Translations under genes and position numbers: made by a program | Notes under the pieces: generated by a model | What the model saw: only the letters and a program-made list of their open reading frames with translations | Database searches by the model: none | What the model was told of the DNA's origin: nothing | DNA from: a virus | Reading direction: 5' to 3' (one strand) | Virus record (IMG/VR): IMGVR_UViG_3300006929_000113 | Span: 1 to 25,371 of that record | Length of the DNA: 25,371 bases | In this document: in pieces, positions 18,636 through 24,224 of the stretch | How the letters are laid out: each line of letters opens with the position of its first letter | Numbering within the stretch: position 1 is the stretch's first letter

Positions 18636-20398
18636 TACAAAGCTCCAAGCAAAGCACCGAGTTCGCCGCCTGCGTCACCCGGAGGAGCAGCAACCGATCT
18701 GCCTTCAGCACCCATCCCCGGCATCGCTAGTCCGGGTTGGGCTTCAGGAGCAGCAGCGTCAACTTGTTTCGCTTGACGTTCTTGTGCTTCTTTCTGGACT
18801 CGTTCTACCGCTTTAGGTAATTCCAACTGGTTGTTGGCGACGAGTTCCATTATGCGTGCTAAGTCGGCAGGAGGGATCGCTCCTTCTACTGCTTGCTGCT
18901 GTATAGAGTTAAGTAACGCTTCTTCTAACTGTTCAGCGATAACAGAGTCGTGTTCAAATTCTGGGTCATCCACCAAAGGATCAATGGACATAAACGAACG
19001 TTTCGACATGGTGCCCATACCGACTCGTTGTCCTCCCCCTATGACAAGGTTGTTGAGATCTGCTCCTGCTTGGGAGTAAGTAACAACGTTTTCGCTAGAG
19101 TCAAAGTTAACGTTAGGGGTGTATTCGACTGGGCCTTTAGCGTTCTTAGTTGTGACATAGAACGTGCGACCCTTGTTGCCGCCATACTTTTTGGACATAT
19201 CAATCGCAAGTTTGTTTTCTTCTTGCAATGACCGAGCCATGATGCGTTGCGCTTCTTGTACCGGGAAATCAACAGCGGCAGAAAGAACTGCGTCGCCTCG
19301 CCGTCCAGTACGGATATTTGTGGGGGACTCCCCACCGAACTCTGCTGGGATGCCAGCGGTTAAACGTTGCGCTCGTTCCAACCTGTCAATCGCAGGGTTG
19401 GTCATGTAGCCGGGTTGCATCTGCATGTCACGCAAGTCGCCGCCACGGATCACACCAACTTCACCGGTGAGTCCATCCGCAGGGTTCACGATTTGTGGGG
19501 TTTCCCCGGCTCGACCTACAAGCCAAGTATCGGGGAACACCCCTTTCTGTACCGCAATAACTTCCAACGCCATCAAACGGGCTTGCATCTGGTACATACC
19601 CAGAATCCCGTCGAATTGCCCTTGCGCTGAATCGAGTGATATGCGCTGCGCTATCACTACAGGTGTTTGACCCAACCGGTTCGGTACTCTTTCAAGTTCG
19701 ACAACAAGGTTGTCATCGGCCCCGTATGCAGAGGTAGCGAACAAACCAGTATTAACTGGGCCTCGCATTGCGATAAGAACTGTCTCGTCATCACCGACAT
19801 ATTCGATAAGTTCGATAGCGGTGTCTGGTCCGGCGTCACTGTCGGATTGGAAAATGCGACCAACCTCGGGATAGTTGTTATGCAACCAGCCGAGTGGTCG
19901 TTCGTATCCGAAGATGCAATCACGGGGACGCATATCGTCTACACCCATAAGTGTCGCAGGGTAAGCAGTAAGCGGATCACGAAGATGCCATTCCGGGCAT
20001 CCTGTAGTTTCGTTCCAACGAAGCTGGGTAACTGTGTTGGAATACCCAATCAGGTATCTCGCACGTTTCGCCATTTGCAAATCCATGCGACTGTTTTCCC
20101 ACCAACCGAACAACGCTTTGCGTTTAATGTCGGAGTTATCTCTGGACCGTTTCCGAGCCGGATCAAGTGGGGGACAGTAAATGTCAGGACGGGTAGACGC
20201 AATCCGCATAGCGGTCTGGTCAAGTCCTTGGGCTAGCAAGTTAGCTACCGCAGACTGCTCATCTGAATTAAGTTCGGGTAGCGGAACAATTACATCGCCG
20301 TTATAGTAATCACGCAAAGTACGCATCCGACTTTTTATTTGGTCGGTCGCTTGTGACCTTGCTCCATATATGGCGACTATCTCATCAACTGATTTCAC
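18635..20398 (-). CDS. Portal protein
   Basis: 587 aa, the dodecameric ring at the capsid vertex through which DNA enters and leaves. The N-terminus is helical (VDEIVAIYGARSQATDQIKS), then MRTLRDYYNGDVIVPLPELN and LAQGLDQTAMRIASTRPDIY, with a KRARYLIGYSNTVTQLRWNE beta region, a GILGMYQMQARLMALEVIAV long stem-like helix (about 274-293), AGIPAEFGGESPTNIRTGRR (about 343-362) and a C-terminal helical, Gln/Ala-rich tail ending GGELGALLGAL. This order is typical of portals in podo- and siphoviruses. It directly follows TerL, overlapping as GTGA, with a GTG start at 20398. There is no protease or fusion domain. The motifs and position make the call secure. Confidence 0.88.
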   Translation of the reverse strand: MKSVDEIVAIYGARSQATDQIKSRMRTLRDYYNGDVIVPLPELNSDEQSAVANLLAQGLDQTAMRIASTRPDIYCPPLDPARKRSRDNSDIKRKALFGWWENSRMDLQMAKRARYLIGYSNTVTQLRWNETTGCPEWHLRDPLTAYPATLMGVDDMRPRDCIFGYERPLGWLHNNYPEVGRIFQSDSDAGPDTAIELIEYVGDDETVLIAMRGPVNTGLFATSAYGADDNLVVELERVPNRLGQTPVVIAQRISLDSAQGQFDGILGMYQMQARLMALEVIAVQKGVFPDTWLVGRAGETPQIVNPADGLTGEVGVIRGGDLRDMQMQPGYMTNPAIDRLERAQRLTAGIPAEFGGESPTNIRTGRRGDAVLSAAVDFPVQEAQRIMARSLQEENKLAIDMSKKYGGNKGRTFYVTTKNAKGPVEYTPNVNFDSSENVVTYSQAGADLNNLVIGGGQRVGMGTMSKRSFMSIDPLVDDPEFEHDSVIAEQLEEALLNSIQQQAVEGAIPPADLARIMELVANNQLELPKAVERVQKEAQERQAKQVDAAAPEAQPGLAMPGMGAEGRSVAAPPGDAGGELGALLGAL

Positions 20399-22338
20399 CT
20401 AAACAACCTCGTATAAGCATGGTCCCCTTCTATATCTTGCCCTGAAATCCATGACGGTCGCCACTGTTTGCTCCCATCGGTGGATGGTATATATAACTTT
20501 TCTAAATTGTGTTCCAGAAACCATTGTGCCATAACACAGTCATCGGTGCGGGCACCAGTCCCTTCAGCGTTCCAACGAGTCACTTCGTTCACTAAAAGAA
20601 GGGAATGCGGTCGGGCTTCTGTCCGTTGTTTTCCGGGCAAACGCACTCGGCCAACGCGCCATAACGGAGCAAGCATCTGCACTCCGTACTTGGGATCTCC
20701 CTTGTTTCGGGAGTGCGTGTAATGCGGAACAAGCTCCACTCCACGCATCGCCGCCCAACGTTTGAAATGATCGTATTGGAGAATAAATTTTTGAGCGGCA
20801 TTTGCTTCGATGATCCAGTGGGTGATGGGGCGACCCATGTCGTTTGTTATCTGCCACCAATCTTCAGCTATGCCAGTGAAGGTTTGGTCGGCATGGTTCC
20901 AGTCAAGGAACGATGGTGCATCCATCTTACGCCGATACGATTCCAGCAAGTAGCGGAACTGGGTTTCAGGGTTAAACGCCCAACATTGCAACGCCCAATA
21001 CTGCGACGGCGAAGGATCTGCTGTCGCCACAACGAACAGGTCGCCTGAAACACCTCTTGGTATTTCCCAAAGATCCCGGTCGTTGTCCCAACAGCCGACG
21101 TAATCCACGCCGTCCGATCCAAGGCCGCCACTTACCCATAAAGGGTCAACGAGAACGCTAGCGGGATTTATGTCCGATTGTTGGTAGAGGACCTCGAACC
21201 TGTCTGGAGTTTGAGCTTTAATGTGTCTAAGTCGTCGCCACGGGAGCCGCCGAGGGTAAAGTAGGCACCCTTCGGGCCACGGTGCGGCGTCAGGTTTGTG
21301 ATCGCCTTGACAAAGTTCTTCATGGTGGACCGGATATTTGAGATGATGGTATTTTCGCCATTCGTCTGGTGCATCTTCTGGATCGAACTCCTCTAATTCC
21401 ATTTCGTCGGGTGGTGCTACCTTGTCCAAGGCGTACCGGTAAATGTCGTCTGCTGACATGCGTTGCCCTTGAAGGATCAGTAACCCTCCCGGCTCTAACC
21501 GGGTTTCGGCTACCTCATCCCACCAGCGGCGCATATCTTCACGAGACTCTGCGGACCGCATCTTACGAGGGTCATATACGTCGTCCCATATGACTAGATC
21601 GAAACGACCTCCGAGGAAACCGGAGTCCATTCCGAAAGCAGACCACGTTGGCTCTTTCTGGGAAAGAGGTTGGTCGTCTTGTTGTAGTACCGTAAACGCT
21701 TCAGATCGCCAAATCTCTGACGAGTCTGGCTTAAACATTCCGAAGTCTTGTTGAAGGGTAGCTTCGGCGTCTACAGCTAAACCTAAACGAACATCGTTAA
21801 GTTCGGCTCTGACTGGATGCGCCCTATCGAACTCTGATCGTAGCCGACGAGAATACCATTCGGCTAGACGTTGCGAAGCTGATCCGATCATTCCTCGGAT
21901 AGCCCGGTTTCTTACCGTCGCCCACGCTGGAAGAACTTTAGCAAAGAACGTTGATTTACCGGAACCGGGTGGGGCGTTGATAACAGCGTATTCTTCGTAC
22001 TCTGTTTCCATTAACCCCATGATGCGTTCGGTGGCTTCTACCTGCCACGGTTGCAAAATGATTCCGAAATAGCGTTTAGCAAAAATTTCTATATTGTCGT
22101 AAGCGGCTTGCGCTTCAGGGCAAAGATCATCGTAAGAGGGAACCCCTATAGCTGGTTGTTCCCCCAATGTTTCTTCGGCTGCCAGATAGTTGCGTGGAGC
22201 TTTACCGGCTTCAGCGTCACGGCAGGAATGATATGAAAGGTCGCATTCTTTGGCAGCGCCGTACATGGAGTTCCCGGCACGACGTAACGCTAAATACTGC
22301 GTCCATTTTTCTACACTTGTAGCTTTGCCCGAAGGCAT
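20395..22338 (-). CDS. terL: Terminase large subunit with N-terminal HTH-like extension
   Basis: 647 aa DNA-packaging motor. Residues about 1-45 look like a small helix-turn-helix (VEKWTQYLALRRAGNSMYGA then AKECDLSYHSCRDAEAG), as in small terminase subunits. The ATPase domain follows: Walker A APPGSGKST (122-130), Walker B FDLVIWDD (246-253), and motif III-like LILQGQR (287-293). The C-terminal RNase H-like nuclease has D441 in VVATADPSPS, E511 in HWIIEANAAQ and D599-D600 in ARTDDCVMAQW. All key acidic residues are present. No separate small terminase is recognisable in the window, so the N-terminal HTH may supply DNA recognition, or terS lies elsewhere. It is followed by the portal with a GTGA overlap. 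Confidence 0.94.
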   Translation of the reverse strand: MPSGKATSVEKWTQYLALRRAGNSMYGAAKECDLSYHSCRDAEAGKAPRNYLAAEETLGEQPAIGVPSYDDLCPEAQAAYDNIEIFAKRYFGIILQPWQVEATERIMGLMETEYEEYAVINAPPGSGKSTFFAKVLPAWATVRNRAIRGMIGSASQRLAEWYSRRLRSEFDRAHPVRAELNDVRLGLAVDAEATLQQDFGMFKPDSSEIWRSEAFTVLQQDDQPLSQKEPTWSAFGMDSGFLGGRFDLVIWDDVYDPRKMRSAESREDMRRWWDEVAETRLEPGGLLILQGQRMSADDIYRYALDKVAPPDEMELEEFDPEDAPDEWRKYHHLKYPVHHEELCQGDHKPDAAPWPEGCLLYPRRLPWRRLRHIKAQTPDRFEVLYQQSDINPASVLVDPLWVSGGLGSDGVDYVGCWDNDRDLWEIPRGVSGDLFVVATADPSPSQYWALQCWAFNPETQFRYLLESYRRKMDAPSFLDWNHADQTFTGIAEDWWQITNDMGRPITHWIIEANAAQKFILQYDHFKRWAAMRGVELVPHYTHSRNKGDPKYGVQMLAPLWRVGRVRLPGKQRTEARPHSLLLVNEVTRWNAEGTGARTDDCVMAQWFLEHNLEKLYIPSTDGSKQWRPSWISGQDIEGDHAYTRLFR

Positions 22339-23056: not shown

Positions 23057-23084
23057 GACCTCAAAAGATAGCAGATGGTATCAT
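23055..23084 (+). promoter_or_regulatory. Leaderless extended -10 promoter for the small membrane protein gene
   Basis: ATGACC (23055-23060), an 18-base spacer and TATCAT (23079-23084) preceded by TGG at 23076-23078. Six bases lie between the -10 and ATG 23091, so transcription would begin at or next to the start codon. No Shine-Dalgarno is present upstream of that ATG, consistent with a leaderless mRNA. Confidence 0.6.
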
Positions 23085-23092
23085 CTTGTGAT
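23065..23092 (-). promoter_or_regulatory. Extended -10 promoter for the minus-strand late operon
   Basis: On the minus strand ATCACA (23092-23087), a 16-base spacer and TATCTT (23070-23065) preceded by TGC. The -10 ends eight bases before ATG 23056. It overlaps the divergent promoter above almost completely, so the two should compete for polymerase. Confidence 0.5.
23073..23086. promoter_or_regulatory. Operator-like dyad inside the divergent promoters
   Basis: AGATG-GTAT-CATCT is a perfect 5-bp inverted repeat with a 4-base centre. It covers the plus-strand -10 and lies in the spacer of the minus-strand promoter. A bound dimeric regulator would block both. No regulator gene is in the window. 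Confidence 0.4.
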
Positions 23093-23369
23093 GACTATAG
23101 AAGAAGTCGCTGAACGAGCGGACGCTTGGTCAGAAGCGATAAAAAAAATTTTGAAAGCTATATCTGCTGCTGGAGTAGCTCTTGCCGCAGCTATAAGTGC
23201 TTTACTAATGTGGTGGCCTAACGGCGGAGAAGAAAAAGATACTACCGTATTATTACATAACACCGGTTACGGCCCGCAATGTTCCCAGCTATACAACACA
23301 ATCGACCACAACTGGACTGAACAACAATGGACAGTGTGGGAGAAACTTAAAAGAGACATGGACTGCTAG
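23091..23369 (+). CDS. Small single-span membrane protein
   Basis: 92 aa from ATG 23091 (MTIEEVAERADAWSEAIKKI). The N-terminal helix is amphipathic, followed by one membrane segment (AISAAGVALAAAISALLMWW, about 23-42) and a soluble tail with one Cys near the middle and one at the C-terminus. Longer starts at 23043 and 23055 lie in the opposing gene and the promoter, so 23091 is chosen, which also makes the mRNA leaderless. It has one span rather than the two of the r1t-type holin found elsewhere in the window. Possible roles include superinfection immunity, a second holin-like protein or host membrane modification; none is proven. It is transcribed away from the late operon toward the gene-free control region. 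Confidence 0.7.
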   Translation: MTIEEVAERADAWSEAIKKILKAISAAGVALAAAISALLMWWPNGGEEKDTTVLLHNTGYGPQCSQLYNTIDHNWTEQQWTVWEKLKRDMDC

Positions 23370-23397
23370 TTGCCCACAAAACGTTTTATGTTATAGT
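23370..23397 (+). promoter_or_regulatory. Extended -10 promoter upstream of the structured region
   Basis: TTGCCC (23370-23375), a 16-base spacer and TATAGT (23392-23397) preceded by TG-T (23389-23391). It begins one base after the stop of the membrane-protein gene. Transcription would start near 23404 and enter about 340 bases with no convincing gene. Confidence 0.6.
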
Positions 23398-23403
23398 GAC
23401 GTA

Positions 23404-23743
23404 ACGAAAACCACGACACCGTGAAAGAACGGCGCTGACCCCGGCGACAGTAGGGTTGCGAGGTGAAAAACCTTCGACCCGAACAGATCGACAGTAGGGC
23501 CAGTAAAGCGTCAGATGCATATAGTCCCCGACGGTAAAGGCCAACAATGATCCCTGCCGTCCAACAAACAATCCGAGACTGAAACCGAGTGCTTGTCAAG
23601 GGAAGCCCGGAAAGCACACAAACAATCGGACAGTCACCACCCGGCCTTTCAACAGAACAATACCCTGTTGACTGACAAAGCGAACCCTAGGCTCCGAACT
23701 AGAAAGCAGTTAGCTCTGACCCTCCCTAGGGCTAACTGTGCTC
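23404..23743 (+). ncRNA. Candidate structured non-coding RNA
   Basis: No credible gene is present, but several pairings are. There is a hairpin at 23453-23480 (GGGT..CGAGGT with ACCT.CG.ACCC, GAAAA loop); GACGG/CCGTC (23530-23534 with 23557-23561); and GTGCTT/AAGCAC (23589-23594 with 23612-23617). TCCGA|GACTG (23572-23581) and TCGGA|CAGTC (23626-23635) would pair in crossing order, as a pseudoknot. A long-range AAAGGCC/GGCCTTT pair joins 23536-23542 to 23643-23649. A closing hairpin lies at 23707-23738 (8 bp). The 11-mer CGACAGTAGGG occurs twice (23445, 23489). A promoter lies directly upstream. The closing hairpin has no T-tract, so the 3' end is uncertain. It matches no RNA family I recognise and could act in replication control next to the putative origin. 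Confidence 0.45.
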
Positions 23744-23880
23744 ACCCATCACCAAACTAGAAACGTGACCCCACATTACACCTCAACAAAAAACAAGAAC
23801 CACCACAAACCCAACACCACCACTGAACCAAAATCCCTCTACAACCGATAAACAGAATATGTATATACCCCCCTCAAGGC
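23744..23880. other. Gene-free, G-poor A/C-rich stretch left of the putative origin
   Basis: About 137 bases of mostly A and C on the plus strand (about ten G in total), with short A-runs and CCAC/AACC words. It has no gene, no promoter that I trust and no exact repeat. The opposite bias appears about 210 bases further right. It may be an easily unwound or single-strand-binding flank of the origin. Confidence 0.45.
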
Positions 23881-23927
23881 ACTTACCCCATTCCGAGGTT
23901 ATCCACAGAGTTATCCATAGGGAAAGG

Positions 23928-23960
23928 TTGTGGGTAGGTTGTGGGTATCTTGTGGGTGGG
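23928..23960 (+). repeat. Three 11-bp tandem iterons
   Basis: TTGTGGGTAGG, TTGTGGGTATC and TTGTGGGTGGG start at 23928, 23939 and 23950, an exact 11-base period close to one helical turn. Read in reverse, each is a 7-of-9 match or weaker to a DnaA box. The four GGG tracts (23932, 23943, 23954, 23958) could also form a long-looped G-quadruplex. Confidence 0.7.
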
Positions 23961-23970
23961 TGCCTCTAAG

Positions 23971-23984
23971 TTACCGCTCGGTAA
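23971..23984. promoter_or_regulatory. 14-bp palindrome in the origin region
   Basis: TTACCG-CT-CGGTAA, a perfect 6-bp inverted repeat with a 2-base centre, sits between the iterons and the third DnaA box. The form (TTAC-x-G-x-x-C-x-GTAA) resembles operators of dimeric repressors such as TetR-type proteins. It may bind a replication initiator or repressor. Confidence 0.5.
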
Positions 23985-24091
23985 TAGACTTATCCACAGA
24001 AAACTAGGGATGTGGGAAACCTGTGCTTAATTAGTTGTGGAAAACGTTTATTAATACTAAATACAACAAACCAAAGAGAACGAAGCAAGAC

Positions 24092-24167
24092 TTATGTGGG
24101 TTGTGTTGTGTTGGTGGTTTGGTTGTGGTTGTTGTAGTGGTTTAAAAGTTTTTTTAAAAGATAGTTG
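24092..24167. other. 76-base stretch without cytosine (G/T-rich), with an A/T-rich element
   Basis: No C occurs on the plus strand from 24092 to 24167. The first part is GT words (GTTGTGTTGTGTTGG and similar). The second part contains a direct repeat of TTTAAAAG (24141-24148 and 24153-24160) with four T between, a plausible DNA-unwinding element. Together with the A/C-rich stretch at 23744-23880 it brackets the DnaA-box cluster with opposite strand bias. The stretch 24061-24091 is purine/A-rich with only one T. Confidence 0.5.
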
Positions 24168-24172
24168 CGTTT

Positions 24173-24203
24173 TGCATTACATCCTGTAAGCTGCATTACA
24201 TCC
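24173..24203 (+). repeat. 12-bp direct repeat upstream of ardC
   Basis: TGCATTACATCC occurs at 24173-24184 and 24192-24203, 19 bases apart. It sits where the -10 and -35 of the ardC promoter should be, and only weak boxes are there (TTGCGT at 24165, TAAGCT at 24187). A regulator binding site is therefore likely. Confidence 0.55.
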
Positions 24204-24224
24204 ACTACGAAAGGGGCCTACGAA

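Follow-up and report, generated by a model that had tools for sequence, protein, structure and literature searches.

How a small phage that has no replisome of its own starts replication is rarely known, and sequence is nearly all that is known of the phages that infect uncultured marine actinobacteria. The viral record IMGVR_UViG_3300006929_000113 (25.4 kb) raises this question at a non-coding locus between its structural and early genes, where sites resembling DnaA boxes are clustered. The record was studied whole, and its 25,371 nt are called the window in this work. A preliminary description had proposed a replication origin at this locus, depending on host DnaA or serving a plasmid-like lysogenic state. 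We asked what the cluster consists of, what surrounds it, how it changes among related phages and whether an origin is its best explanation.

Gene layout and probable host

The leftward structural module encodes a capsid protein, an amidase endolysin, a 1807-aa protein and the terminase large subunit (TerL, 20,395-22,338). Only the start of the rightward early module is inside the window, with an ArdC-like gene first. At least 80 TerL relatives (63-91% identity) are present in IMG/VR, several of them on contigs of 36-38 kb. In a sister contig, L083, the early genes include a WhiB-like protein; since this family has been described as confined to Actinobacteria (PMC3861242), the host of the phage, judged from WhiB alone, is probably a marine actinobacterium. 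A search for the host through genomes was not retained: the TerL profile matched one MAG contig, L105 (PARV01000048.1), which is labelled Gammaproteobacteria, has a TerL 84% identical to that of the window phage and is probably a misbinned phage contig.

The locus between the two modules holds the following features (strand given where it applies).

23,094-23,369, plus strand: small gene with an ATG start, left of the cluster
23,370-23,397, plus strand: promoter-like site TTGCCC-N16-TATAGT preceding the RNA gene, from a promoter scan
23,400-23,745, plus strand: structured non-coding RNA of about 340 nt
23,745-23,819, plus strand: C/A-rich, G-poor tract after the RNA gene
23,820-23,893, plus strand: conserved block CTGAAC-N18-GATAAA ... 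GGCAC, common to 23 contigs including the window and L083
23,899-23,907, plus strand: exact DnaA box TTATCCACA, invariant in L083
23,911-23,919, plus strand: DnaA box TTATCCATA with one mismatch, 12 bp after the first box
23,928-23,958 (to 23,959 as 9-mers), minus strand: three degenerate DnaA boxes at 11-bp pitch, CTACCCACA, ATACCCACA and CCACCCACA
23,971-23,984: inverted repeat TTACCG-CT-CGGTAA, not conserved in L083
23,990-23,998, plus strand: exact DnaA box TTATCCACA, not kept at the same place in L083
24,011-24,044, minus strand: weak boxes TTTCCCACA (24,011) and TTAAGCACA (24,022) and one-mismatch box TTTTCCACA (24,036)
24,041-24,080: AT-rich stretch
24,092-24,167: C-free, G/T-rich tract
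24,173-24,203, plus strand: direct repeat TGCATTACATCC, two copies 19 nt apart, just upstream of the ArdC start and unchanged in L083
24,225-25,370, plus strand: ArdC-like gene with ArdcN and MPTase-PolyVal domains, cut by the window end

The palindrome and the C-free flank of the preliminary description are thus both in place, and the latter, with exactly 76 nt, is the longest C-free run in the window (the next has 32). The picture of a gene-free stretch between divergent genes was only partly right: the small gene nearest on the left is read on the plus strand, like ArdC, and gene polarity switches at about 23,057-23,093, 0.8 kb left of the cluster.

A local cluster of phased DnaA boxes

The two exact and two one-mismatch boxes first described are present, in numbers far above those of shuffled sequence. 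Scored against TTATCCACA, from which the box preference of a host whose species is only inferred may differ, the segment 23,890-24,050 has two exact boxes (mean of 0.003 in shuffles), four with at most one mismatch (0.075) and eight with at most two (0.67). None of 1000 dinucleotide shuffles of this segment matched the observed counts in any of the three mismatch classes, and over the full 481 bp P was at most 0.002 for each class. The entire window is not enriched (TTATNCACA with at most one mismatch occurs 22 times vs 19 expected), and the signal is therefore a local cluster.

The three repeats at exact 11-base spacing, which had been called iterons, start at 23,928, 23,939 and 23,950 and read TTGTGGGTA, TTGTGGGTA and TTGTGGGTG on the plus strand. 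Their letters are better read as degenerate reverse-strand DnaA boxes at 11-bp pitch, with two mismatches each in CTACCCACA and ATACCCACA and three in CCACCCACA; iterons for a phage Rep protein were rejected for this reason. Boxes that share a strand and are spaced 11 or 12 bp from one another form 4 pairs in the window (0.15 expected) and 10 pairs in L083 (0.16 expected), counts that were reached in 0 of 2000 shuffles. Two traits of oriC-type origins are therefore found in both contigs, namely consensus DnaA boxes clustered in non-coding DNA and weak boxes phased about 11 bp apart; opposed arrays are clear in L083, and the window has one clear array.

Conservation and turnover of the cluster

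Only the window and L083 carry this version of the cluster, L083 being the sole other viral contig found with this ArdC gene and likewise the sole other one found with the exact strong pair; no exact strong pair was found in bacterial genomes. The strong pair, TTATCCACAGAGTTATCCATAGGGA, is identical in the two contigs letter for letter. L083 also keeps the minus-strand array, with four units (CTATCCCTA, ATACGCACA, GTACCCACA and CTATCCACA) at exact 11-bp steps, the last of them, CTATCCACA, being one mismatch from the consensus. To the right of the array, at 23,960-24,050, the two contigs have diverged and differ in their boxes: instead of the minus-strand boxes of the window at 24,011-24,044, L083 carries a second 11-bp array of opposite orientation.

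L083 2964, 2975, 2986, 2998, 3009, 3020 and 3031, plus strand: array of boxes at 11- or 12-bp steps

The box counts of L083 are also far above those of shuffles. Box number and phase that are kept while positions shift are what selection for DnaA binding would leave. Directly behind its small plus-strand gene and ahead of the RNA gene, about 500 bp from the cluster, L083 has one more exact TTATCCACA at 2337-2345, where the window reads GCCCACA.

Boxes equally dense in related phages, which the preliminary description had named as counting against an origin, were not found: among the fetched TerL relatives other than L083, none has more than two TTATCCACA boxes (at most one mismatch) per 200 bp. 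Since even relatives with a TerL 84-91% identical carry no such cluster, it is not the general origin of the family, and these relatives must initiate in another way. One of them, L006, has six TCATTGAA repeats at about 640-320 (minus strand), downstream of the same conserved block and in the slot of the DnaA boxes of the window. These repeats are possibly sites of another initiator or of a repressor, and their presence at this place suggests that lineages exchange what follows the promoter-like block.

With single Pfam models, PolA, DnaB, DnaE, the DnaG zinc ribbon and the DnaA C-domain were recognised in none of 16 related contigs, some of which may be incomplete, while the controls were positive. 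Ten early proteins of L083 were considered; those recognised are an SSB, a Rad52/Erf-like annealing protein, a Cas4-like nuclease and a RusA-like resolvase, and no own initiator or helicase loader was named among the ten, several being unassigned and the contig being incomplete. Since replisome genes were not recognised in the relatives, these phages probably use the host replisome.

Flanking elements and the ArdC-like gene

The DnaA boxes start directly downstream of the conserved block, so that the sites follow a candidate promoter. Across the 23 contigs, the block consists of CTGAACCAAA, about 14 variable bases, CGATAAT or similar, and then GGCACAT. TTGAAC or CTGAAC followed after 18 bp by GATAAT is likely to be a sigma-70-like early promoter with the start of its leader, because in L013 and L027, which lost GATAAT, the neighbouring register reads TATAAC or similar. 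A simple promoter consensus scan did not call the block at 23,820-23,893, and its promoter role is thus one that we infer.

The G-poor flank (23,744-23,890, 10 G in 147 nt) is present as described, yet it is no hallmark of the cluster: its right part belongs to the block, which relatives without DnaA boxes also have; the tract at 23,745-23,819 is a possible Rho-loading tail. On the other side, the AT-rich stretch at 24,041-24,080 (83% AT at 24,041-24,070), partly kept in L083 (TACTAAATA-AACAAACCAAAG), is a candidate unwinding element, and the AT maximum adjoins the arrays in both contigs (83% in the window, 77% in L083). The TGCATTACATCC repeat is a possible operator of the ArdC gene. This gene belongs to the ArdC family by its ArdcN and MPTase-PolyVal domains, both above the Pfam cut-offs. 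ArdC-like genes were found in 2743 plasmid records and also in many phages, e.g. large Caulobacter phages; the plasmid-like lysogenic state thus gains no support from this gene.

A structured RNA beside the cluster

The structured RNA, which was absent from the preliminary description, lies between the structural and early modules. Its region is nearly unchanged in L083 and recognisable at full length in four further contigs.

L083 2374-2712
L003 8098-7767
L004 8863-8531
L005 8969-8638
L006 1173-838

Compared with shuffles, the plus strand folds with a z of -2.9, and the reverse strand folds no better than shuffles (z of -0.5). The alignment of the six sequences supports 50 pairs, 96% paired, 13 of which changed on both sides vs 7.4 +- 1.5 after column shuffles and 0-2 when the structure was slid; the slid control is biased in favour of the structure, which came from the very alignment on which it was evaluated. 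No reading frame is open in all six sequences. Rfam gave no match at the gathering score and only chance-level ones below it, and the search with an exact pattern for further copies returned just the five contigs already known. The RNA, with its compensatory changes, is thus apparently undescribed so far. A part in origin function, e.g. as a primer or regulator, is conceivable, but the RNA is also present in relatives that have no DnaA boxes. In L007, L013 (about 8200-8000, minus strand of L013) and similar loci, a shorter and different conserved non-coding stretch (GATCGCCCGTCAGAGGGGCATCTGACTCCGTGTCCAGACACGACGG...) stands in its place; this stretch, with no meaningful match in Rfam, is perhaps a second RNA type.

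GC skew

Cumulative GC skew in the window reaches its minimum at 23,893, and the predicted turn near 23.9 kb is therefore there. As evidence for an origin it is uninformative, because the drop at 23,745-23,893 is the G-poor tract itself, third-position skew tracks gene strand in both arms and relatives without boxes show the same; indeed, in four of eight full relatives (G002, G004, G007 and G008) the minimum is no more than about 100 nt away from the shared block. GC skew was thus discarded as a proof of the origin, the local G-poor tract and gene polarity accounting for the minimum.

A probable origin fired by host DnaA and its alternatives

Taken together, we hold with moderate confidence that 23,890-24,080 is most likely a host-DnaA-dependent replication origin, laid out on the oriC plan and specific to this phage lineage, and that the array probably lets the phage borrow the host replication machinery. 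Host DnaA would nucleate at the high-affinity boxes (23,899, 23,911 and 23,990) and from there fill the opposed weak-box arrays with their 11-bp pitch, so that the AT-rich stretch at 24,041-24,080 would open. The helicase, primase and polymerase to load next would be those of the host, since none was recognised in the relatives. Since the cluster is immediately downstream of the early-promoter-like block, transcription through it probably helps firing, as at ori-lambda. Of the two states first proposed, host-dependent initiation is partly supported, in that an origin-like cluster for the binding of host DnaA is well backed by the sequence (boxes far above chance, conservation with turnover in L083, opposed 11-bp arrays, an AT-rich neighbour and no replisome genes recognised in relatives). 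The plasmid-like lysogenic state does not, neither an integrase (PF00589) nor ParA (PF13614) having been detected in 16 related, possibly incomplete contigs, while the controls were positive.

The position of the boxes directly after a conserved promoter-like block would also suit a DnaA-controlled early promoter without an origin, at which host DnaA raises or represses ArdC and the early genes and couples the phage to the host cell cycle. We regard this as unlikely, because a few boxes usually suffice for such control, whereas opposed weak arrays of 11-bp pitch next to an AT-rich stretch follow the oriC plan. The same traits would be superfluous in a DnaA sink, which would titrate host DnaA and thereby keep an infected host from initiating anew, in the manner of datA or clusters of the DARS type. 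A sink would account for the dense packing of the boxes and for the free turnover of their positions, but a single cluster of 8-10 sites would be a small one unless the phage reached a high copy number, and we give this explanation little weight.

Boxes and ArdC co-occur only in the window and L083, and they might have come jointly from a plasmid, the boxes being a relic or a second origin for a plasmid state. The abundance of ArdC-like genes in plasmid records would agree with such an import, which nevertheless seems as improbable as a sink: the best plasmid and phage ArdC matches are only about 30% identical, neither integrase nor ParA was found in the related contigs, and a relic would not retain its box content while positions change. 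Finally, the sites could belong to another phage protein and merely resemble DnaA boxes, other members of the family using other repeats there, as the repeat family of L006 downstream of the same block illustrates. Against this, two boxes match TTATCCACA exactly, and in L083 the degenerate repeats come to within one mismatch of that consensus; we consider this explanation very improbable.

DnaA-box clusters in other viral contigs

The pattern TTATCCACA-N3-TTATCCAYA matched at least 120 stretches in viral contigs (L106-L225) vs 11 for the reversed pattern, so that tandem DnaA boxes are more than 10-fold enriched over this control. Of the 131 pairs that were read, 94 fall outside any ORF of at least 80 aa and 54 belong to clusters of at least four boxes. 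Terminase, GP88, endolysin/peptidase and RusA are among the 25 commonest gene families beside 37 clusters; DnaA and DnaN are not. Given this enrichment and these neighbours, DnaA-box clusters are a recurring phage feature. The viral tandem boxes often stand in clusters of 4-12 beside TerL, GP88 or RusA genes, and at several loci a TerL about 24% identical to that of the window is close to the cluster.

Skew gave no general signal: a skew extreme is within 400 bp in 5 of 21 clusters with at least four boxes (4.3 expected). The hits H1-H50 entered the analysis as counts alone. In L117, L147, L155, L194 and L215, with up to 12 boxes, skew turns from negative to positive with a minimum within about 520 bp of the cluster. 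Our search of the literature on oriC-like clusters across phage genomes found none, which is no proof of absence.

We tentatively propose, as a possibility that we hold with less conviction than the origin of the window phage itself, that a widespread, as yet unsystematised set of lytic phages replicate as minichromosomes fired by host DnaA, with oriC-like arrays near TerL or early genes, neither an initiator nor a replisome encoded by the phage and a module that is gained and lost within families. Were this true, the window phage would be a clear example, in which a structured RNA gene and an early promoter lie beside the origin. The enrichment of tandem boxes makes the use of host DnaA by phages surveyable, and an oriC-like phage array is a short piece of DNA that is testable in a plasmid.

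Comparison with known systems

Plasmid origins and oriR of P1 combine DnaA boxes with short phased repeats in a compact region. There the repeats are the binding sites of a Rep protein whose gene is adjacent, as partition genes usually are too, whereas no such genes were found here. The ArdC-like protein shares ArdcN and a zincin-like metallopeptidase domain with ArdC anti-restriction proteins, but it is at most about 30% identical to plasmid and phage members, and an anti-restriction role here is a candidate one.

In lambda (pR, pO/oop and ori-lambda), DnaA-box-like sites lie downstream of a promoter at the origin, a small non-coding RNA gene is nearby and the host replisome is used; the window, with its candidate promoter, its RNA gene and its probable use of the host replisome, would correspond to this arrangement. 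Lambda, in contrast, has an initiator O with iterons and a helicase loader P, none of which was recognised here, and the repeats of the window are themselves DnaA boxes. In oriC of E. coli, weak sites 2 bp apart form two oppositely oriented arrays with strong boxes flanking them (PMC6070618, PMC4285127). The phage locus resembles an oriC of this type in its TTATCCACA strong sites, its opposed weak sites with 2-bp spacing (11-bp pitch) and its AT-rich neighbour; it differs in that the array, known from sequence, lies within what is probably an early transcription unit and has neither dnaA nor dnaN as a neighbour.
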